This document shows, one piece after another, positions 21,481 to 36,877 of a stretch of DNA of 64,000 nt. Every line of letters starts with the position of its first letter. Position 1 is the first letter of the stretch. The translations under genes were made by a program, and so were the position numbers. The notes under the pieces are model-generated. The model searched no databases. It was not told where the DNA came from and worked only from the letters and a program-made list of their open reading frames with translations. This stretch comes from Sipunculus nudus. Lineage: Eukaryota > Annelida > Sipuncula > Golfingiida > Sipunculidae. Where the stretch lies: positions 15,876,164-15,940,163 of the forward strand of contig CM049315.1 in NCBI GenBank assembly GCA_026874595.1, written 5' to 3'.

Positions 21481-21741
21481 AGCTACCCATATATAAATCC
21501 GACACTTCATGAGAGTATTCATGTCTTCAAGTTTTCTACTATTTTTTTTAATTCACTATAAATGAAACAAATCGAAGTATTTTTGCCTCCTTGGCCTGGC
21601 CTGGTTGCCAATGGAGAACTAATGACGTAGGGGGCATGCAGGTGTCAACAGTTCAGAGGTCACTTGTACCTACGAACTGTGGACACGGTCGAGACTCCAT
21701 ATTCGGTCGATCACAGTGACACACAGTCCAACTGCAGAAAC

Positions 21742-21887
21742 ATGGCGTCAAAGATTGCAGCGGAATTGTCCGTCCTGACAGTTACGGACTCGGACGGACA
21801 CGAGCAGACAGCTACGTGTTTGCTGCCAAGTGATCCTGCACGGTTCACGCTTCTGGTGTTCCTCCGAAACTTCGCCTGAATAGCATG
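21742..21887 (+). CDS. Exon 1 of the UxxC protein (contains in-frame TGA)
   Basis: ATG at 21742 (AACATGGCG context) gives 45 codons to TGA at 21877-21879, then ATA GCA TG|GTTGGT. The donor is at 21888. The exon ends in phase 2 and the first base of exon 2 completes TGT (Cys). An earlier in-frame start could extend the protein to 21664 but gives a non-conserved leader. Confidence 0.75.
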
Positions 21888-24800
21888 GTTGGTAGATACA
21901 AGTCACGTGATCTTGCTACCTCTATAGCTCTACATTTTTAGCTCAGCTGACTATAAGTCATCTGAGCTATAGTTGTGGTCCATTGTCCGTCGTCTGTCCG
22001 TCCGTCCGTAGATGTGGCACGTTTTGAAACCGTAAGACCTAGGAATCCAAAATTCAGCATAATGTTAGATGTCCCCAAGATCTCCTACCAAGCCTAAAAC
22101 TGGGTCTTTGCGACTTCATTCCTTTGAGAAATTAAGGAAAAACCTCAATTTTTTATTAAAAACCTATATTCACACTTCAGGACTGCCTAATATCAAAACC
22201 ACTCATCTGTTTTTCCTCATATTTCCTATAAATAATCCTCTATATAATTCCTATGTACATGCCAGAAATTAGGTCTGTATTATATAATTTAAAAAAGTTA
22301 TGGGCCCAAACATAATGCATTTTGTAAATAATCAGGAAAGAAATTTTATCACTTAACACAAAACTTGTTAAAGCTAAGCACTTTTTTCCAGTAATATTAC
22401 TTTTATTAGTCAAAATTAAATTGTATACCCAAAATTAGATCAAAATCTTTTAAATTTTTTAAAATATTAGCAAAAATAAAAAATTGGTACCTTAAATTTT
22501 GCCCAACTTTGACCATGGCACGTTTTTTTGCTGAAACTGCTGTGGATTTAATTTTCACAGCATGTTTTTGTTAGCATTGTTAACACCAAAAATTTGAAAC
22601 CAGTTAATCAAAAACTGTAGATTTTATTCAAGTTTTCAAGCACCATGTCACATATTGCTAGTGTTATGCAGTTTGCTAGAGCTCAGCTCCCGAATTCAGC
22701 TCTAAATTCCTTAAATTTGGCATACAGTTAGATTTCTCCAAAATCCCCTACCATGCCAAGAATTTGGTCACTAGGACTTAATTCCTTCGAGATATCAATG
22801 AAAAACTTCATTTTTCCATTAAAAACCCATTGTTACACTTTAAGACTGCCTAATATCAAAACCACTGATCTGACTTTAATCATAAATAATATACATATTT
22901 TTCTATACATTCGCTATGCACATGCCAGAATGATATCAGTATTGCATAATTTGTTTTAAGTTATGGGCCCAAACATAATGCACTTTGTAAAAAAATCAAG
23001 AAATATATTTACTCCCTTAACTAGGGCATTGCTGAAGCTAGAGATTTTTTTGTCAGGGATGTAACCTTATTTAATCAAGATTTAATTGAATACCCAACAT
23101 TAGTTCTGAATTTTTCATAAATTTTCATGAATTTTTTTTATAAGTTATTAGTATAAATATAAAATTAGTACCTTAAATTTTGTCCAACTGTGACCATGGC
23201 ACGTTTGTTTCCCGTGAGCACTTTTGATATAATTTTCATATCATGCACACATAAGGATTTCAGCTTTTTAGTTTAGAAAGCTTAAAGAAATTGGCCAAAT
23301 ATTGAAGCTATTATTAATGTTTTTTATGAGACCCTGTCAGACTTTGGCTCTCTCCAGCCCCCCTTGAGTCACCTGTATGTTGACCTTGTTGACCTTTCAT
23401 CAAATTATGCACGCTTGAGGCGAGAATCCTGGCAGCTTATGGCCAGCCACAGTTGATCCAGGTGTCCAACCCAACTCATCTAGTAGTTTTAACCAACAAC
23501 ATAACAATAAACAATAAATTAATAAATTTTTATTGGTTTTTAATAACAAATTAAAGAAAAATAGAAAAGGAATTTGTTAGTTTATAATAACAGGAAATTA
23601 ACTTGCAGTTACTGATGATATAAGAATCTTGTATCGATGGGTAGAATGTCACATATTCCAAATAACACCATGCAGTCACCTATGGCATTTTTAGTTCAAT
23701 TTTAATGATAAAAAAGTAAATCATATTATTCATTACTAATCATTAGGGATTATATGAAGGAAATTAATGATAGACAAAGATGCAGTTGATAATATTAATC
23801 TAGATTTCTACTGTGTCTAGTGTGTACATTGATGTGAAATAAGTCCAGAATGAATTTTTTACAGTTATTTTTTAATATAAATAAAAGCCATAAAACCAGG
23901 TACTTATGATCATAAGTGTGATTTTTGTATATTCTGGATTCTCAACATCATTGTTTGGTGAAAACTGAATAAATACCAGACATGGTGCGAATACTTTGTA
24001 ATTGTATTTAAATACGAATATGATTATGTACTCCATTAAATTTCTTGCATAAAGAATGGGAATTCAGGTAAAAATGAAAGTATATGAATACTCGTGCAAA
24101 TACTTTCAAAATGTATTCATGAATGCATTCATGAATATATTCTTTAATATTATTATAATAATCATATCAGTTATATTTCATTTTAAAAAATCATACGATT
24201 CTCTTATTATTTTTAATAAAAATTATATTTGGGACAATATTTGTAATTTTTTTAATAAATAGTTAAACTCTTATATTATATGTTCTGCTTATAAGTTATA
24301 TGGCCAAGTCAAAATCTGTGTGACAGTAGTACTCCATTTGTTAATAAAATAAATGAAATCAATCCTCTTCCCTGTCTCCAAAGGTACTATCAAAATCATA
24401 CATAAGCTAAACAACAACAACTCATAATACAGCTTATATTTATTACCACACAAAACCAGCATGTGCCTCATTTCTAAATAATATTTTTTTATCATATATA
24501 ACAGCTGAGCGTCGTGACCCATAGGTCCCTTGTTTATTTTATATAACACGATACTTGTCGGAAACATCTTAGCCTGTATTACTATTAAAATATACTTTAG
24601 CTGACAACCCCTGTCATATATTTTCAAGGAAAAGTGAACGTGAATGACACTCCATAAATAAACAAATGTGTGTGTGAGGGTGTGTGCGTGTGCCTGAAAT
24701 TATGTTTCACTCGGTAAGCAGGTAAGGCCAACAAAAGAAAGGTATGGTTCTCAGGCACTTTTTTCAGGAACCATTGCAGGCGGGCAATATTTTATTTTTT

Positions 24801-27800
24801 TCAATTTTTGTATATTTTTAAAATGTCATATGATCAGGGAAACATAAAAATAACAGATTTTTTTTTTGCTAAACAGATAAAAACACTACATATCAAAGGA
24901 AAACTTATCAAAAATGTATCATTTTATCTTCTTGATTATGAAAATCAAAATAAGAATTTTTTATGTGGGGGTTTAATAAAAACGCGGGCGATGCCTGACA
25001 ACCATACCTAGCTTTTTATTTTTTTGGCCTAATGATAAATGTAAAAAAAATAAAATGTTTTTTGTTGCCTTAATGCCACTTAATATCACTTTTAATACCA
25101 ATTTTTCCAGGATATAACAATTGATTATTGATGTTAAAATGCCCTGGGTGACTATGATGTAGGCTCTCATCTGGGCTAGAACGGCCTGTAGACTGTTTCT
25201 CCCGCTAGCACTTTGCTGTGACTTGCATGTAATTTGTACCGTGTTGAGAGTTTTAATAGCTGCAGAGTCGTTTTAAATTAAAAACCATATTTGAAGGTCA
25301 CAATGTATTTTTAGTGCGTCTTTAAATTATTAATCCTCTTTCAGCTTTGAACTGATTACTAATGAATATTTATCTCTGCTCTGTGAAAAGAGTAGGTCAC
25401 AAGTTCATTCATATATATTATTGTTATTCAAAAATAAATATGGTCACATATTTTTAAATTTCAGTCATCTCCTGGTCCAAGCAATGCAGCCATTGTCCCC
25501 ACTCTTCATGAAGCATCATACTAGATTAATATTCATAAGCACATCAACCAATGAACAAACACAGGAGTTCTTAGCCAATCCAATTGTAGACATACCAGGT
25601 GACCTGTATGCTGATCCAAGTGTCAAGGTTCACCGTCTGTTCCAGCTGAAGAGAGGGGTTTTCCGCTCACTGGTGATGCCGCTGTGGTCTGGCATAAAAA
25701 AATATGGTTTCAAAGGCATTATTGAAGGTAACCATATCTTTCTGTTCTTTTGCAAGTCATAAAGTCGTTCTACATTTGTTTAAATAAACCATACTTTAAG
25801 GCACTACTTTCTATATAACTGTTTGCTGGGTATGGCCACTACAGAATTTAATAAAGAGCCAAGAATGTTTTCCCCAATTTATGCAAGCACAGTTTTGCTT
25901 GTTTCAAACTAGGTCAGACGTGATACCCATGCAGCTCTCATTGGTCAGAACACTCTTGGCCCAGTGCGAGCTTTTCTGATGGCAGTACTCAGCAAAGTGT
26001 TATAGAAAGCAATGGTTTTGTGAAAGGAATTATAAATTGAATCTCACCATGGCCTAATGAATGCACTTAAAAATTCACATGAACACAATCCATATCTCCA
26101 CTCATCTTATCGGGTTGCAGGTATTCTTGGAAATATATATCAGTTAAGTCATTAAAGATCAGGCTCGTCTTGAATAATACCAGCACTATCCCAAGTCAGT
26201 TTAACAACAAATGTACTACTAGATAGCTATTGTTAGAAATTTAACATTTAACTGTACATTAACAGGTGACAGGTAAGGGTACCTGCTTCAACCATGTCTG
26301 TACATTAACAACTGACAGGTAAGGGTACCTGACTCAACAATGTCTGTACATTAACAGGTGCTTATTAGGATACCTGACTCAACCATGTCTGTACATGAAC
26401 AGGTGCCTGGTTAGGATACCTGACTCAACCATGTCTATACATGAACAGGTGCCTGGTTAGGATTCCTGACTTAACCATGTCTGTACTTCAACAGGTTCCT
26501 GGTTATGATACCTGACTCAACCATGTCTGTACATTAACAGGTGCCTGGTTAGGATACCTGAATCAACCATGTCTATACATGAACAGGTTCCTGGTTAGGA
26601 TTCCTGACTTAACCATGTCTGTACATCAACAGGTTCCTGGTTAGGATACCTGACTCAACCATGTCTGTACATGAACAGGTGCCTGGTTAGGAAACCTGAC
26701 TCAACCATGTCTGTACATGAACAGGCGCCTGGTTAGGGTACCTGACTCAACCATGTCTGTACATTAACAGGTGCTTGGTTAGGAAACCTGACTTTGCCAT
26801 GTCTGTACATTAACACTTGCTCAGTAAGGATACCTGACTTTGCTATGTCTGTACATGATCAGGTGCTAAGTTAGGATACCTGACTCAACCATGTCTGTAC
26901 ATGAACAGGTGCCTGGTAAGGATACCTGACTCAACCATGTCTGTACATTAACAGGTGCCTGGTTAGGATACCTGACTTGACCATGTCTGTACATGAACAG
27001 GTGCCTTGTTAGGATACCTGACTTGGCCACGTCTGTACATGAACAGGTGCCTGGTAAGGATACCTGACTCAACCATGTCTGTACATGAACAGGTGCAAGT
27101 TGAGAATACCTGACTTGGCCATTTCTGTGTATAAACAGGTGACTGGTAAGGATACCTGACTCAACCATGTCTATACATTAACAGGTGCCTGGTTAGGATA
27201 CCTGACTTGGCCATGTCTGTACATAAACAGGTGCTCGGTGAGGATACCTGACTCAACCATGTCTGTACATTAACAGGTGCCTGGTTAGGATACCTGACTC
27301 AACCATGTCTGTACATTAACAGGTGCTCAGTAAGGATACCTGACTCAACCATGTCTGTACATGAACAGGTGCCTGGTTAGGATACCTGACTTGGTCATGT
27401 CTGTACATTAACAGGTTCCTGGTTAGGATACCTGACTCAACCATGTCTGTACATAAACAGGTGCCTGGTTAGGATCCCTGACTCAACCATGTCTTTTCAT
27501 TAACAGGTGCTAAGTTAGGATACCTGACTTTGCTATGTCTGTACATTAACAGGTGCTCAGTTAGGATACCTGACTCAGCCATGTCTGTACATTAACAGGT
27601 GCTCAGTAAGGATACCTGAGTTAGCCATGTCTGTACATTAACAGGTGCCTGGTTAGGATACCTGACTTGGCCATGTCTGTACATGAACAGGTGCCTGGTA
27701 AGTATACCTGACTCAACCATGTCTGTACATGAACAGGTGCCTGGTAAGGATACCTGACTTGGCCATGTCTGTACATTAACAGGTGCCTGGTTAGGATACC

Positions 27801-30800
27801 TGACTCAACCATGTCTGTACATTAACAGGTGCCTGGTAAGGATACCTGACTCAACCATGTCTGTACATAAACAGGTGCCAGGTTAGAATACCTGACTTGG
27901 CCATGTCTGTACATGAACAGGTGCCTGGTTAGGATACCTGACTCAACCATGTCTGTACTTTAACAGGTACCTGGTTAGGATACCTGACTTGGCCATGTCT
28001 GTACATAAACAGGTGCTCGGTAAGGATACCTGGCCCATCCATGTCTGTGCATTAACAGGTGCCTGGTTAGGATACCTGACTTTGCTGTGTCTGTACATAA
28101 ACAGGTGCTCGGTTAGGAGACCTGACTTAGCTATGTCTGTACATTAATAGGTGCTCAGTTAGGATACCTGACTCAACCATGTCTGTACATTAACAGGTGC
28201 TCAGTAAGGATACCTGACTTTGCTATGTCTGTACATGATCAGGTGCTAAGTTAGGATACCTGACTCAACCATGTCTGTACATGAACAGGTGCCTGGTTAG
28301 GATACCTGACTCAACCATGTCTGTACATTAAGAGGTGCCTGGTTAGGATACCTGACTTGGCCATGCCTGTACATGAACAGGTGCCTGGTAAGTATACCTG
28401 ACTCAACCATGTCTGTACATTAACAGGTACCTGGTTAGGATACCTGACTCAACCATGTCTGTACATGAACAGGTGCCTGGTTAGGATACCTGACTTGGCC
28501 ATGTCTGTACATTAACAGGTGCCTGGTTAGGATGCCTGACTCAACCATGTCTGTACATGAACAGGTGCCTGGTTAAAATACCTTACTTAGCCATGTCTGT
28601 ACGTGAACAGGTGCCTGGTAAGGATACCTGACTCAACCATGTCTGTACTTTAACAGGTATCTGGTTAGGATACCTGACTTGTCCATGTCTGTACATGAAC
28701 AGGTGCCTGGTAAGGATACCTGACTCAACCATGTCTGTACTTTAACAGGTACCTGGTTAGGATACCTGACTTAACCATGTCTGTACTTTAACAGGTACCT
28801 GGTTAGGATACCTGACTTGGCCATGTCTGTACATGAACAGGTGCCTGGTAAGGATACCTGACTCAACCATGTCTGTACTTTAACAGGTACCTGGTTAGGA
28901 TACCTGACTTGGCCATGTCTGTACATGAACAGGTGCCTGGTAAGGATACCTGACTCAACCATGTCTGTACTTTAACAGGTACCTGGTTAGGATACCTGAC
29001 TTGGCCATGTCTGTACATAAACAGGTGCTCGGTAAGGATACCTGGCCCATCCATTTCTGTGCATCAACAGGTGCCTGGTTAGGATACCTGACTTTGCTAT
29101 GTCTGTACATAAACAGGTGCTCGGTTAGGAGACCTGACTTTGCTATGTCTGTACATTAACAGGTGCTCAGTTAGGATACCTGACTCAACCATGTCTGTAC
29201 ATTAACAGGTGCTCAGTAAGGATATCTGACTTTGCTATGTCTGTACATGATCAGGTGCTAAGTTAGGATACCTGACTCAACCATGTCTGTACATGAACAG
29301 GTGCCTGGTTAGGATACCTGACTCAACCATGTCTGTACATTAATAGGTGCTCAGTAAGGATACCTGACTTTGCTATGTCTGTACATGATCAGGTGCTAAG
29401 TTAGGATACCTGACTCAACCAAGTCTGTACATGAACAGGTGCCTGGTTAGGATACCTGACTCAACCATGTCTGTACATTAACAGGTGCCTGGTTAGGATA
29501 CCTGACTAGGCCATGTCTGTACATGAACAGGTGCCTGGTAAGTATACATGACTCAACCATGTCTGTTCATTAACAGGTACCTGGTTAGGATACCTGACTC
29601 AACCATGGCTGTACATGAACAGGTGCCTGGTTAGGATACCTGACTTGGCCATGTCTGTACATTAACAGGTGCCTGGTTAGGATACCTGACTTGGCCATGT
29701 CTGTACATGAACAGGTGCCTGGTAAGTATACCTGAGTCAACCATGTCTGTACATGAACAGGTGCCTGGTTAGGATACCTGACTTGGCCATGTCTGTACAT
29801 TAACAGGTGCCTGGTTAGGATACCTGACTCAACCATGTCTGTACATTAACAGGTGCCTGGTAAGGATACCTGACTCAACCATGTCTGTACATAAACAGGT
29901 GCCAGGTTAGAATACCTAACTTGGCCATGTCTGTACATGAACAGGTGCCTGGTAAGGATACCTGACTCAACCATGTCTGTACTTTAACAGTTACCTGGTT
30001 GGGATACCTGACATGGCCATGTCTGTACATAAACAGGTGCTCGGTAAGGATACCAGGCCCATCCATGTCTGTGCATTAACAGGTGCCTGGTTAGGATACC
30101 TGACTTTGCTGTGTCTGTACATAAACAGGTGCTCGGTTAGGAGACCAGACTCTACCATGTCTGTACATAAACAGGTGCCTGGTTAGAATACCTTACTTGG
30201 CCATGTCTGTACATGAACAGGTGCCTGGTAAGTATACCTGACTCAACCATGTCTGTACATTAACAGGTACCTGGTTAGGATACCTGACTCAACCATGTCT
30301 GTACATGAACAGGTGCCTGGTTAGGATACCTGACTTGGCCATGTCTGTACATTAACAGGTGCCTGGTTAGGACGCCTGACTCAACCATGTCTGTACATAA
30401 AACAGGTGCCTGGTAAGGATACCTGACTCAACCATGTCTGTACATAAACAGGTGCCTGGTTAGAATACCTTACTTGGCCATGTCTGTACATGAACAGGTG
30501 CCTGGTAAGGATACCTGACTCAACCATGTCTGTACATTAACAGGTGCCTGGTAAGGATACCTGACTCAACCATGTCTGTACATAAACAGGTGCCAGGTTA
30601 GAATACCTGACTTGGCCATGTCTGTACATGAACAGGTGCCTGGTAAGGATACCTGACTTTGCTATGTCTGTACATAAACAGGTGCTCAGTTAGGAGACCT
30701 GACTTTGCTATGTCTATACATTAACAGGTGCTCAGTTAGGATACCTGAGTTAGCCATGTCTGTACATTAACAGGTGCTCAGTTAGGATACCTGGCTCAGC

Positions 30801-33259
30801 CATATCTGTACATTAACAGGTGCCCGTTAGGATACCTGACTTTGCTAAGTCTGTACATTAACAGGTGCCTGGTTAGGATACCTGACTTTGCTATGTCTGT
30901 ACATTAACAGGTGCTCAGTAAGGATACCTGACTCAGCCATGTCTGTACATTAACAGGTGCCCATTAGGATACCTGACTTTGTCATGTCTGTACATTAACA
31001 GGTGCTTGGTTAGGATACCTGACTTTGCTGTGTCTGTACATAAACAGGTGCCTGGTAAGGATACCTGACTCAACCATGTCTGTACTTTAACAGGTACCTG
31101 GTTAGGATACCTGACTTTGCTATGTCTGTACATGAACAGGTGCCTGGTTAGGATACCTGACTCAACCATGTCTGTACATTAAGAGGTGCCTGGTTAGGAT
31201 ACCTGACTTGGCCATGTCTGCACATGAACAGGTGCCTGTTAAGTATACCTGACTCAACCATGTCTGTACATTAACAGGTACCTGGTTAGGATACCTGACT
31301 CAGCCATGTCTGTACATTAACAGGTGCCTGGTTAGGATACCTGACTCAACCATGTCTGTACATTAACAGGTGCCCATTAGGATACCTAACTTTGTCATGT
31401 CTGTACATAAACAGGTGCCAGGTTAGAATACCTGACTTGGCCATGTCTGTACATGAACAGGTGCCTGGTAAGGATACCTGACATTGCTATGTCTGTACAT
31501 AAACAGGTGCTCGGTTAGGAGACCTGACTTTGCTATGTCTGTACATTAACAGGTGCTCAGTTAGGATACCTGAGTTAGCCATGTCTGTACATTAACAGGT
31601 GCTCAGTTAGGATACCTGGCTCAGCCATATCTGTACATTAACAGGTGCCCGTTTGGATACCTGACTTTGCTAAGTCTGTACATTAACAGGTGCTTGGTTA
31701 GGATACCTGACTTTGCTATGTCTGTACATTAACAGGTGCTCAGTAAGGATACCTGACTCAGCCATGTCTGTACATTAACAGGTGCCCATCAGGATACCTG
31801 ACTTTGTCATGTCTGTACATTAACAGGTGCTTGGTTAGGATACCTGACTTTGCCATGTCTGTACATTAACAGGTGCTCAGTAAGGATACCTGACTTTGTT
31901 ATGTCTGTACATTAACAGGTGCTCAGTAAGGATACCTGAGTTAGCCATGTCTGTACATTAACAGGTGCTCAGTAAGGATACCTGACTCAGCCATGTCTGT
32001 ACATTAACAGGTGCCCATTAGGATACCTGACTTTGTCATGTCTGTACATTAACAGGTGCTTGGTTAGGATACCTGCTTTGCCATGTCTGTACATTAACAG
32101 GTGCTCAGTAAGGATACCTGACTCAGCCATGTCTGTACATTAACAGGTGCCCATTAGGATACCTGACTTTGCCATGTCTGTACATTAACAGGTGCCCGTT
32201 AGGATACCTGACTTTGCCATGTCTGTACATTAACAGGTGCTTGGTTAGGATACCTGACTTTGCCATGTCTGTACATTAACAGGTGCTCAGTAAGGATACC
32301 TGACTCAGCCATGTCTGTACATTAACAGGTGCCCATTAGGATAACTGACTTTGCCATGTCTGTACATTAACAGGTGCCTGGTTAGGATACCTGACTTTGC
32401 CCATGTCTGTACATTAACAGGTGCTTGGTTAGGATACCTGACTTTGCCATGTCTGTACATTAACAGGTGCTCAGTAAGGATATCTAACTCAGCCATGTCT
32501 GTACATTAACAGGTGCCCATTAGGATAACTGACTTTGCCATGTCTGTACATTAACAGGTGCTTGGTTAGGATACCTGACTTTGCCATGACTGTACATTAA
32601 CAGGTGCTCGGTTAGGATACCAAACATCACACTTGGCTGGAGATTCCTGGCAGCAGGGTGGTCTGGTTCTGTTGGATCAGAAGGGAGATGTCTTGCATCA
32701 GGTGAGGCTATCAAAAGTGCATTTGTTTTTGTTAACATATTTCTTTAGAAATTTATCATTCTGTTTAAAACTATTTATAAGATATTAATCCTGGTTGTTT
32801 ATGTAGGCTGTGTTGTTTTCACAATGCTCTTTTGTATCAATTAAAACATGGTTTATACCTGGTAAATCAGATAATTAACCAGTAAAGAGGAGCATTATTA
32901 GGCTGAGTGCTCTGTGCACCATCACACTCACAGACATTGCACAATCAGTATGTATACAGACATTACACACATAATACACACACAAACTGAACAGAAAAAA
33001 TACATTACATTTGCAGAGGTTAAATCATGAAAGTATATGAATATGCATTCTAATCACCAGGACATCCCATATTATGTGTAAAATGTAAGATAAATTTCTG
33101 TATATATTCCTACAGCACACTGAGAACCATCCCGGTGACTGGAGTGATATGAAGGAGATATTTAACACAATAGGGGTCGATGATGCCAATGTGGATTACA
33201 AACAGGCTGTGGACCAGTGGCTTAAGGCACGGAAGGAGCACCAGCAAGATAAATCATAA
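21742..33259 (+). CDS. AhpC/TSA-like thioredoxin-fold protein, probable UxxC selenoprotein (4 exons)
   Basis: Exons 21742-21887, 25465-25727, 32616-32701 and 33116-33259 join in phase to 639 nt, 212 residues plus stop. All introns are GT..AG. The product resembles the peroxiredoxin-like AhpC/TSA group that includes PRXL2/SelU and selenoprotein L: first strand LLVFLRNFA, then the active-site loop, then FMKHHTRLIFISTSTNEQ, the linker KVHRLFQLKRGVF, and LAGDSWQQGGLVLLDQKGDV. Relatives have CxxC after the first strand. Here the reading is TGA-Ile-Ala-Cys (residues 46-49), with Cys49 formed across the exon 1/2 junction (TG|T). TGA at exactly the catalytic position, with good coding on both sides, points to selenocysteine. 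A sequencing error, a recent stop mutation or an unlisted exon are alternatives. No signal peptide is evident. It is expected to act as a thiol/selenol oxidoreductase; the substrate is unknown. Confidence 0.8.
21903..21910. promoter_or_regulatory. TCACGTGA palindrome just inside intron 1
   Basis: An E-box palindrome 16 bp after the exon 1 donor. The same 8-mer is found about 200 bp upstream of the secreted-protein gene and of the ANKRD46-like gene. Function is inferred. Confidence 0.3.
21936..24534 (+). repeat. Interspersed repeat family A, long copy in intron 1
   Basis: It begins TTTTTAGCTCAGCTGACTAT and ends with AGCTGAGCGTCGTGACCCAT followed by AGGTCCCTTGTTT. GCTCAGCTGA near the start is inverted near the end (TCAGCTGAGC in other copies). 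Inside, at least two diverged subunits of about 0.7 kb follow one another (from 22020 and from 22690), each with 'ACAGTTAGAT', 'GGACTGCCTAATATCAAAAC' type phrases. No protein gene. Same family as 47434-48366 and 51092-55130. Confidence 0.8.
24740..25009. mobile_element. MITE, copy 2 of the TTCTCAGGCAC family
   Basis: The left end AGGTATGGTTCTCAGGCA is repeated inverted at the right end (TGCCTGACAACCATACCT) with one mismatch. The interior matches the copy at 16910-17217. It lies in intron 1 of the UxxC protein gene. Confidence 0.85.
25465..25727 (+). CDS. Exon 2 of the UxxC protein
   Basis: Acceptor TTTCAG|T at 25464/25465, donor GAAG|GTAACC at 25727/25728. It encodes residues 49 (last base) to 137 (first base). 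It starts HLLVQAMQPLSPLFMKHH, directly continuing the helix after the active-site loop. Confidence 0.85.
26250..32615. repeat. 46-bp minisatellite, about 138 units, filling intron 2
   Basis: A continuous array of a 46-bp unit. Landmarks in order are GCCTGGTTAGGATACCTGAC, TCAACCATGTCTGTACATTA and ACAGGT. Variant units differ at GCCTGG/GCTCAG/GCCCAT, at TCAACC/TTGGCC/TTTGCT and at ATTAAC/ATGAAC/ATAAAC, and variants recur in blocks, showing higher-order duplication (for example, near-identical stretches around 28020-28290 and 29030-29300). The last unit reads GTTAG|GATACC, where GATACC is the start of exon 3, so every unit with GTTAGGATACC carries a copy of the real 3' splice junction. Open frames on the minus strand are repeat translations. 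Confidence 0.95.
32616..32701 (+). CDS. Exon 3 of the UxxC protein
   Basis: It follows the last minisatellite unit (GTTAG|GATACC) and ends CATCAG|GTGAGG. It encodes residues 137-165 including LAGDSWQQGGLVLLDQKGDV, the most conserved block of this protein type. An acceptor 12 bp upstream (TTAACAG|GTGCTC, exon from 32604) is also in frame and would add four residues. Confidence 0.82.
33116..33259 (+). CDS. Exon 4 of the UxxC protein, with stop codon
   Basis: Acceptor CCTACAG|CAC. It encodes residues 166-212, starting HTENHPGDWSDMKEIFNTIG and ending in a Lys/Gln-rich tail before TAA at 33257-33259. Confidence 0.85.
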   Translation, partial: HTENHPGDWSDMKEIFNTIGVDDANVDYKQAVDQWLKARKEHQQDKS

Positions 33260-34330
33260 ACACCATCCTGCACAAACACACAGATCCTAGCATCACTCAG
33301 TAACTGAACAGATCCTAGTCTAAGTGTCTTACTCTGTAACTGAACAGACCCTAGTCTCACTCTGTAACTGAACCATATACTGTGGTTGGCATTTTGGCGA
33401 GGGTTCAAAATTAGCACATGTCAGTAGTCATTTATGCCTTAGTCTCATTGGTATCTCTTGGTAGTAATGCTTGATGATAGTGACCAAAGTACCAGAGGGG
33501 CAAGAAATTGATATTACATGCCATCACAGATCTCATGTTACCTGTAAATTTAAGACGCATATAATAATTACTGTCAGATATTTAATTTATCTATCAAAAT
33601 TGAACAATTTCATTTAGTACAGTGCACGCTTTGGTCCTTTTTGAATGAGACATTTAAAGAGGTTTTGCTAATTTTCAACAGTTTATGACTTGATATCAAG
33701 TGTATATTGTGTTATGATGTTCAAGTCACTCTGTATAATCTCAGAATTCAACACCAGTAATATGAAGCCAATTACAGTATACTCATGAGTTACAGACATA
33801 AGCCAGTGTGCAAGAGGGTTGTTAATATATATTTATATATATATAGTGGAACCTCCCCTTACAGGTAACTCTGTAATAAGGGCAATTTTTATGGCCACTT
33901 ACGGGCAGTCCCTCGAAAGAAGGTCCCAAAATCTATAAGCACTCTACTAAGGGCACCTCTATATTGCCAGCAAAATGTCTGGTCCCATCAGTGTCCATAA
34001 TTCATAGGTTCTACTGTTTGTGTGTATATATATGTATAATGACATATTTTATTATCATGATGTGTTCCATTGAGTCCTGCCACTTATGAGGGTCACTGCT
34101 GAAAGCTCAGTAAAGGGGTAGCATATGATCTGATCACTATGGTTACAGGCATCATTGGAACATATTGTGTATAAAGTTTTTTATTTATTAAAGAACAAAC
34201 TATGCTTGTGTGTTGTCTTTATAATTCGTATATAAGAAAGTGAAAGTAGACTATGTTATATGGTTGTGTTTTATATAAAGATGCCATGCAGTTAGTCACT
34301 TGTAATAAATGAAGGGTTTAGAACTAAGCT
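33260..34330 (+). other. Probable 3' UTR of the UxxC protein gene
   Basis: No coding. An AATAAA signal lies at 34304-34309. Any SECIS element should lie here. By eye the least bad candidate is ATGA 33785-33788, AA 33800-33801, GA 33814-33815, but its helix is short and mismatched. Confidence 0.45.
33845..34016. mobile_element. Small pogo/mariner-like MITE in the 3' UTR
   Basis: The left end AGTGGAACCTCCCCTTAC and right end CATAGGTTCTACT give an inverted AGTRGAACCT. The interior 'AAGGGCA...' and 'GGTCCC' text is typical of short TA-targeted elements, and a TA precedes the left end. No coding. Confidence 0.5.
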
Positions 34331-34379
34331 GAAACACATATAACATTTACTATTATTATTTATAATTAATGGTTGATTA

Positions 34380-35640
34380 ATCATACACTGAAAAGGACAT
34401 AGTACGTTGGCCTATGCAGAATAATCCTACAGAATCTGCCCAGATACCCACCCAAAGTTTCATGGAAATTAGCCGTTTTTGCATAATTCTGCCAACAGAC
34501 CAACAAACCTACATGGGTGATAACACAATCTCCTTGGCAGTGGTAACAAAAAATTAAATACTAAAAATTACTTTCATGTGTTTTACGATCATGCAATTGC
34601 TACTTGTTACTTATGTCATGCCAACAGTAATAAAATATAGCTTCATTACATACTTTTTAAACCTTCAGTCTAACAAAATTTGTTGATGATATAACAATTC
34701 ACCATTAAGGAAAGCACACAGGATTGGCAAATTTTTGCGAAGGATGATAAAAACTATGGAAAAAATCTGAATTTTTTCAAGATAAAGAACTATGATATAT
34801 TTATTAATGATTTTCATGTGGCTACTGGTGTGTTATAGCATGTTGATTTGTCATCCATTAACCTTACCCTTGTGGTAATTCTGTCCGCCTAACCATGGAA
34901 GATGAGGGAATAACAGAACATCTGTGACACAGCAGGGCAGGGGTGCTGCCCAAGCCAGCCAGGCATGATTGATCTTTTACCAGGGAAGACGGTACTCCAT
35001 GCTTTGAAGTAACCAGAAGTGGGCTGGCTGCACTTGACAATGCAATATAACTGATATGGCCCCAAAGATACTTCAGTAAATGGCTCATTTTTTAAGCTTT
35101 TATTTCAAATTTCAAAATTTAATACCGGTAGTTTAAATTCATTTATGTGCATCATATGAAAATAAAATCAATGTTACTTACAGGGAATAAAATTCAACAC
35201 AGCAAAACAAATGTACTTTAAATTATAAGAGATCCCCTACAGTAAACATACTGTGGGGAAAAGCATAACTGTTAATGTTATATATTTTCAAATTACCTAA
35301 CTATACAAATTGAAAATATAATCATATTATGTTTAAAATCGTGAAACCAAGGGTCATGCATTTTTATGACATATTTCTATTCAAGAAATCTATAACTGTT
35401 TAGACAATTTTGGTACATATTTAACACAGGTCTATGTGATAGTAAATGGCATTTAAAACATGTTACATTGAAACAACATATATTTAGTCAACATTATTCC
35501 ATGTGATGCATTTCACTAGTGTCTGTCACACTGTGTGTCCATCCCACCAGCTGACTAATGCAATTACAAGTTGAAATAGGTCTCAACAGTCCCCATAAAA
35601 TGCATACTAAGTCATGTTAGCCATGAAGGCTAAGCTCTCT
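34380..35640. other. Intergenic between two convergent genes
   Basis: A repeat tail is probable at about 34430-34550 (TTTCATGGAAATTAGCCG ... CTCCTTGGCAGTGGTAAC). No exon is supported. Part of it may be the 3' UTR of the minus-strand ANKRD46-like gene. Confidence 0.4.
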
Positions 35641-35653
35641 GAATGATTCACTG

Positions 35654-36002
35654 TCATAGTTCCACTCTGATTTCTCCACCATCAACTGGTATGCGACTGT
35701 CAACTTGCTTGGCTATGCTTGTGGCCATATAGGCCACATATACTGATATCACAAGTATCACTAAAATCAGACACACAAGTCTCTCAGCTCCCAGGTCCTT
35801 ACAGAACCTGTACCAGTCATCTTGTATACTTTTTAAGAGTGAAGTTCTGCTCCCTTGTACAGGTGGCTGTGGATCAAGTAATGGATCTGTCTCTTGTTGC
35901 TGTCCTGCTGTTCCAGGTTCAAGCCTCTCCAGTAATTCTATTGCTCTTGGTTCAACTCCCCTCCTCCTCATCAGCAGGTCAGGCGTGTCACCGTTATGGT
36001 TC
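35654..36002 (-). CDS. ANKRD46: Exon 2 of the ANKRD46-like gene
   Basis: Acceptor TTGTTGTCAG|GAAC on the minus strand at 36003/36002. It encodes the last ankyrin helix, the acidic/Gln-rich linker and the C-terminal transmembrane anchor, then stops at 35654. Confidence 0.85.
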
Positions 36003-36877
36003 CTGACAACAAAAAGAATATTTCACCCTTGAAGAGTACAGCTATCAGATCAAGACCAGTATAAGACCCTTGTTTTATATATTGAAGAGAATAATAAAAG
36101 AAATACGGCATAAATTGCAATATTTATATCCTGACATCAGCAACATACAGAATAATGTTATCACTTATGGCGGACGAACAGAAAAAACGTCAATATTTCC
36201 GATTTTCAACACATTGTTATTCCAAAACAATCAGTCAATTCATTAAATATCCCTTTTTTTTATACAAATTAATGTCTCTGTTACATATATACAATAATCT
36301 ACAGCATAATACCTATATATAAACTGTCTTATATACCTTTACAAAAAAAACCCTAAACTACACCTTTACTGATATATATGTATATTATTATTTACATAAC
36401 TGTAATTAAGGGTGATAATATTTTATGTAGTCCATTAAGTGATCAGTGAATTACCATCAAACATCACCAGTGAGGACACTGGTAATTCTGATCACGCTTC
36501 TCCACAAAGTTTTATTTTAAATGATTTTTAAATAACTATAAATTAATTTATCCCTAAGATAAATGAACCCACCTGCTAATCTGAGCACCATGTTCTAGTA
36601 GGCAGCTAATTGTTTCTACGTGGCCAGCATAATGTAGAGGGGTGTTGCCATGACAGTCCACGCAGTTAACCTCTGCCCCATGGTCCAGCAGTAGTCTCAG
36701 CACTGACGCCCTGCCCCGGGAACACGCCCAATGAACGCCCCTTCTCCCTCTCTCGTCCGGGGCGTTTGGGTCCCATCCTTCGTCTAGCAGAGATTTTAAT
36801 TCATTAATATTACCAGCAGCAGATACATTTGGGATAGTGAATTCTCCCATCCTTGATCTATTTTTTTTTCTACTCAA
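35654..36877 (-). CDS. ANKRD46: Ankyrin repeat domain protein 46-like, membrane-anchored (2 exons)
   Basis: Exon 1 36877-36573 and exon 2 36002-35654 join in phase (AG|G, Arg) to 654 nt, 217 residues, close to the roughly 230 residues of vertebrate ANKRD46. Ankyrin repeats occupy about residues 17-135: NELKSLLDEGWDPN, RGRRGVHWACSRGRASVLRL, HGNTPLHYAGHVETISCLLE, then a repeat spanning the junction (GDTPDLL...RAIELLERLE). A hydrophilic Gln/Pro-rich linker follows, then a single C-terminal membrane segment at about 177-200 (LVCLILVILVISVYVAYMA). Vertebrate ANKRD46 has this same order: repeats, 'NTALHLCGHVDTI'-type motif, 'SLL' linker, tail anchor. The cellular role is not well established; an endomembrane tail anchor is expected. 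It converges on the UxxC protein gene. Confidence 0.88.
36573..36877 (-). CDS. ANKRD46: Exon 1 of the ANKRD46-like gene
   Basis: ATG at 36877 followed by a basic start (MSRKKNRSRMGE) and about two and a half ankyrin repeats. The donor AG|GTGGGT is at 36573/36572. Confidence 0.85.

Follow-up and report, generated by a model that had tools for sequence, protein, structure and literature searches.

A gene of the annelid Sipunculus nudus, contained in a 64,000-nt stretch of genomic DNA (hereafter the window), very probably encodes a functional UxxC selenoprotein related to selenoprotein L (SelL), in which the UGA at codon 46 would be decoded as selenocysteine (Sec) with the help of a candidate SECIS element. 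In the mechanism that we propose from sequence comparison, Sec would be inserted at this codon by the host tRNA-Sec, as directed by the SECIS about 830 nt into the proposed 3' UTR. The product would be a thioredoxin-fold, peroxiredoxin-like oxidoreductase of the AhpC-TSA_2 (PRXL2/SelL) superfamily, standing nearest to the 'SelL-related' proteins. Judging from fold and motif, the attacking residue, with a peroxide or disulfide as its target, is likely to be Sec46; Cys49 would resolve the reaction by forming a selenenylsulfide, which a thioredoxin- or glutathione-type system may in turn reduce. We infer that the SECIS works and lies within the transcript and that the protein is made at full length; the catalytic roles, the substrate and the reductant are put forward on the same footing. 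Because SelL is described as a protein with two Sec residues and the second Sec is absent here, we file the gene as that of a SelL-related UxxC selenoprotein and not as SelL proper.

Gene structure, redox motif and family

The gene occupies four exons on the plus strand of the window. Exon 1 (21742-21887) runs from Met1 to the first two bases of Cys49 and contains the TGA; exon 2 (25465-25727) begins with the third base of the Cys49 codon; exon 3 (32604-32701) starts GARLGYQTSHLAGDSWQQGG...; and exon 4 (33116-33259) closes with a TAA stop at 33257-33259. All three introns are GT-AG, with phases 2, 1 and 0. The coding sequence comprises 651 nt, or 217 codons, and the single in-frame stop before its end is the TGA at 21877-21879 (plus strand), the proposed Sec46, where the open frame 21631-21879 terminates. 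Once spliced, the frame reads U46-I-A-C49, so that the TGA takes the first position of a UxxC motif whose Cys codon is divided by intron 1 (TG at 21886-21887, T at 25465). The earlier note on this DNA had described four exons continuing in phase to a normal stop, with the TGA followed by Ile-Ala and a Cys made at the exon junction (TG|T); the exon coordinates, phases, TAA and spliced motif all bear it out. When the protein was compared with the whole 1.43-Gb genome, five matches were returned, namely the four exons, of which exon 1 carries the flag '1 TGA', and a fifth, weak one at another place (E=0.275). At the sensitivity of that protein search no second close copy was found in the whole genome, so that within its limits the gene counts as single copy.

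In its 3' part, intron 2 consists of a minisatellite (26252-32621 of the window) with a 46-bp unit repeated about 139 times, which crosses the exon-3 splice acceptor and takes in the first ~18 nt of exon 3. Since the repeat spans the acceptor, the acceptor has been copied more than 100 times upstream. Among the 128 AACAGG sites examined from 26251 through the real acceptor, one, the real one, opens a frame to the exon-3 donor. Downstream of the gene and convergent with it lies a minus-strand open frame of 122 aa (35654-36022) with a hydrophobic stretch near its C-terminus.

Two profile libraries place the protein in the peroxiredoxin-like family. In Pfam it passes as AhpC-TSA_2 (PF13911; E=1.3e-13), with 51.8 bits against a gathering cut-off of 27, and its best and only match in NCBIfam is NF040769, SelL-related redox protein (E=1.4e-24), at a score of 86.7 bits that lies below the curated cut-off of 120 bits. 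The latter alignment sets residues 20-187 on profile positions 11-172 of 173. Homology is found on both sides of the in-frame UGA: from residue 46 onward the score is 62.1 bits as compared with the 86.7 of the whole protein, residues 20-45, before the TGA, contribute about 25 bits, and the first 73 residues alone (motif included) match the model with E=1.5e-5. At residue 46 the model scores Cys about 8 bits better than Ser or Trp, and at residue 49 Cys about 5 bits better than Ser. The four residues U46-I-A-C49 align with C-V-V-C of a solved prostamide/PGF synthase (PDB 9us9; match E=4.7e-11), the TGA coming to stand on the first Cys, and PDB entry 9usa has Ser at both aligned positions. The UGA thus stands at the Cys/Sec site of a known family. 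Two Sec codons in a UxxU arrangement are not found in this gene, the second position being the TG|T Cys.

That the TGA sits where the attacking Cys belongs, as first proposed from the letters of the DNA, is backed by both the CVVC alignment with 9us9 and the Cys-favouring column of NF040769. The family comparison made at that time needs refining, the best model being the SelL-related redox protein. UxxC is unusual when set beside the UxxU of SelL, and it looks to reach beyond this one animal, as the four relatives that extend to the second position all have Cys there. Sec-form proteins of the SelU/PRXL2 group probably carry UxxC as well.

Selenoprotein L (SELENOL) resembles the present protein in being peroxiredoxin-like, in having Sec within a redox motif and in its aquatic distribution, and the SelL-related model is the best match. 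In published descriptions it carries a pair of Sec separated by two residues (PMC3316567), in a UxxU motif that forms a diselenide (PMC2397514, PMC12822975), and has a single SECIS, whereas the second residue here is Cys; the passages on SelL in PMC3316567, PMC12822975 and PMC2397514 jointly describe the two-Sec motif, the diselenide and the single SECIS. For the limpet Lottia gigantea, Table 1 of PMC3473315 lists one SelU and no SelL. The SelU/PRXL2A-C proteins (FAM213, AAED1, prostamide/PGF synthase) share the PF13911 domain and a redox motif at the same place, and section 8 of PMC3473315 has Sec forms in invertebrates, but their fit is poorer than that of the SelL-related model, and the GDSWQQGG and ExxPxDW blocks of the clade to which this gene belongs differ in the prostamide/PGF synthase 9us9. 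Sec in a peroxiredoxin-like protein is also known from bacteria, in a thiol:disulfide oxidoreductase (UxxC/UxxU) and in a PF13911 protein with UxxS, as described in the relevant parts of PMC13188914 and PMC9312934; these differ in using bacterial Sec insertion and are compared here by description only. The same kind of comparison applies to two eukaryotic AhpC-like selenoproteins, AhpC_b of Thalassiosira (UxxC), reported in one diatom, and AphC.like, reported in sponges (excerpts of PMC7539508, PMC3473315). No description of a mollusc UxxC selenoprotein of SelL type was found in the literature searched, a body from which subscription papers are mostly absent.

The SECIS candidate and the Sec machinery of the genome

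Scanning of 33260-35654 yielded one SECIS candidate, at 34067-34158 on the plus strand, with ATGA at 34086-34089, AAA at 34102-34104, TGAT at 34131-34134 and helix I in the flanks. Its AUGA/AA/GAU core (34086-34134) lies 827 nt past the stop, and a candidate polyadenylation signal, AATAAA at 34304-34309 on the same strand, is found downstream of it. The criteria applied were those given in section 27 of PMC2375036 (NTGA, 10-13 nt to AA or CC, 15-39 nt to GA), with energy limits of at most -12.6 and -3.7 kcal/mol and a single stem, the helix limits being our own reading; the candidate has an energy of -23.6 and a helix II of -9.8 kcal/mol. A SECIS 3' of the gene had been predicted before any scan, and this candidate answers the prediction in a positive though not decisive way.

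Several comparisons bear on how much the candidate means. The scan of the window as a whole (128 kb of strand) gave seven candidates; one of them, a GTGA candidate at + 27238 within the minisatellite, matches that of the gene in stability and three others have energies of -19.4 to -22.6, so energy alone does not single out the gene's candidate. Dinucleotide shuffles of 33260-34320 (n=1000) contained any candidate at all in 34 cases, one with ATGA and AA in 8, one with ATGA, AA and GAT in 3, and an equally stable one with ATGA and AA in 0; the corresponding counts for shuffles of 33260-35654 (n=1000) were 63, 15, 6 and 0. Its plain folding energy is unremarkable (z=0.62, with 146 of 200 shuffles folding at least as well), and as this z-score is not significant, reliance is placed on the published pattern criteria, the shuffles and the genome's own selenoprotein genes. 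The Rfam SECIS models found no match in the whole window at the gathering threshold, nor in 33117-36000 and 34040-34185 at E up to 10; genome-wide, where 150 of 30293 candidates were scored, SECIS_1 gave one match, which at 34.9 bits stayed just under the cut-off of 35.

Both a host tRNA-Sec and other selenoproteins are found in this genome. There are two tRNA-Sec loci, scoring 80.6 and 79.2 bits and each given the anticodon UCA by ARAGORN, which assigns the next match of that search (47.6 bits) to tRNA-Ser. A thioredoxin reductase (TXNRD) gene at C7:52785301-52805300 (L012-L014) ends ...TVTGCUG-stop and is followed at a distance of 1.6 kb by a strong SECIS. Glutathione peroxidase (GPx) Sec exons read NVASKUG on C4 and NVATYUG or NTATYUG on C2. 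The C2 exons of this type belong to a GPx cluster at 30.16-30.21 Mb (L032-L035, L038, L039), in which closely similar SECIS elements lie 61-87 nt past three GPx stop codons; the order of the exons suggests which Sec exon of C2 is paired with which downstream GPx exon.

These genes served as controls for the SECIS scan. The control set of 410,980 strand-bases consisted of the window together with L004-L008, L012-L014, L019 and L029-L039, leaving out L009-L011 and overlapping loci, and its GPx stretches were chosen for holding GPx genes. It contained 32 candidates, 9 of them with ATGA and AA and 5 with ATGA, AA and GAT, the GAT condition having been noted after the candidate of the gene had been seen. 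The five are that candidate, the TXNRD element and the three elements 61-87 nt past GPx stops (at L039 the Sec exon was not located). As the TXNRD element had been found by means of the Rfam SECIS model, it is a check on the script and not an independent count. Helix II of the gene's candidate (-9.8 kcal/mol) is weaker than those of the four control elements (-15.5 to -17.0), and an alignment of the five was too untidy to serve as the basis of a model. In the downstream DNA covered, no candidate with ATGA and AA occurs on the gene strand after the C4 GPx or the C2 GPx of L035 (Sec exon in view), and the minus-strand GPx of L032 (Sec exon likewise in view) has a TTGA candidate only and none with ATGA and AA downstream; with three GPx genes that have a Sec exon in view and show no such candidate, the scan is evidently incomplete. 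At the minus-strand GPx of L031, where the Sec exon was not seen, there are two ATGA and AA candidates, with GAA and GAG.

Relatives and their missing N-termini

Three protein searches of a set of 5.8 billion proteins, the last of which scored the 7996 candidates sharing most words, brought together 77 different relatives. Mollusc source names are attached to 11 of these (Haliotis asinina, Mytilus trossulus, Mytilus galloprovincialis, Tegillarca, Crassostrea virginica, Saccostrea, Nucella, Littorina, Pomacea, Babylonia and Batillaria) and protist names to two (Triparma and Balamuthia), the majority being without source names. Where proteins are named, the automatic labels include 'peroxiredoxin-like 2C' (PRXL2C), 'AAED1' and 'prostamide/prostaglandin F synthase-like'.

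In none of the 77 does the best alignment begin at or before residue 46; every one starts at query residue 47 or later. The extrapolated protein start falls after residue 46 in 71 relatives, and within residues 47-57 in 39, and the other six (P0018, P0023, P0034, P0037, P0050, P0073) have longer N-termini without similarity in that part. The earlier note had expected a routine gene caller to break or truncate the gene at the TGA; the protein models of all 77 relatives found lack residue 46. Three proteins, P0003 (MAC), P0014 (MAC) and P0007 (VAC), begin at residue 47, one past the TGA site, and all keep C49; given these starts, the intron after Cys49 is no explanation for them, though it could explain the later ones. 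The residues that precede the homology in P0018, P0050 and P0073 may represent translated intron that ends in an AG|C acceptor, with the Cys split at the same place. Cys holds the second motif position in all four relatives that reach it (P0003, P0007, P0014, P0037). One of the four, P0037 (214 aa), reads RVSC at the motif, with no homology before it, and the Arg where Sec is expected does not fit Sec in that protein.

From the protein starts, the TGA would be conserved in the relatives: automatic gene finders appear to cut these proteins short at its site, and UxxC looks to be wider than one animal. According to PMC12822975, coding sequences annotated from a start past the Sec codon are a common error, all the more where Sec is near the N-terminus, and SELENOL is among the worst annotated in Ensembl. 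Back-translated patterns brought up no relative in viral contigs and prokaryote genome contigs, and tblastn none in plasmid and phage records. Two viral stretches picked up with the GDSWQQGG pattern were rejected, as they gave no SelL-related match and their reading frames were unrelated by eye.

Competing explanations and wider meaning

Were the TGA a true stop, which we consider quite unlikely, the locus would make a shortened protein from a downstream Met or would be a decaying pseudogene. The relatives' protein models are short, most of them starting after the TGA site, and Met56 is available in exon 2, but a start there would give a protein without the redox motif, the N-terminal exon still shows homology to the family and retains the strand that precedes the motif, and the 217 codons hold no other stop or frame break. 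Moreover, the TGA falls on the conserved catalytic Cys column, and many relatives are truncated at or near the same residue. The position of the codon in the Cys column of the redox motif also argues against near-cognate readthrough of the UGA as an ordinary amino acid, and against its bypass through alternative splicing or editing; although the many copies of the exon-3 acceptor in intron 2 mean that splicing at the locus may be complex, skipping the codon would delete the motif, and with tRNA-Sec and Sec genes in the genome and a SECIS candidate downstream we hold this to be very improbable. A single base change would suffice to turn TGC or TGT into the TGA through an error of base calling or assembly. 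Such an error is extremely unlikely, however, as the break recurs at or close to this residue in relatives that come from other species and data sets, and the TGA is where Sec is expected.

A question of another kind is whether the gene belongs to the SelU/PRXL2 group (PRXL2C = SelU2 or PRXL2B = SelU3) and not with SelL, which is possible if somewhat doubtful; it concerns the family name and is compatible with the core of our preferred explanation. In its favour are the PF13911 score above the curated cut-off, the PDB match to prostamide/PGF synthase, the names given to the relatives and the Sec-form SelU3 reported from invertebrates in section 8 of PMC3473315. Against it, the SelL-related NF040769 fits better and over nearly the whole model, though with 86.7 of the 120 bits of its cut-off.

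With the gene read as a SelL-related UxxC selenoprotein, the balance tips slightly towards a broader proposal, namely that molluscs, and perhaps aquatic protists too, possess an entire SelL-related clade with a single-Sec UxxC motif, which annotation has missed because gene callers place the start past the UGA. The relatives in the 5.8-billion-protein set are without the catalytic residue apparently for that very reason, and in practical terms databases may hold a redox enzyme family that lacks its active site. Diselenide redox motifs are rare and SelL has one; the UxxC clade, if real, would be the natural counterpart to that UxxU diselenide, representing either the ancestral single-Sec state or the loss of the second Sec. 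With such a family, the contribution of the second Sec could be tested directly, in the potential of a diselenide as against a selenenylsulfide and in the choice of reductant.
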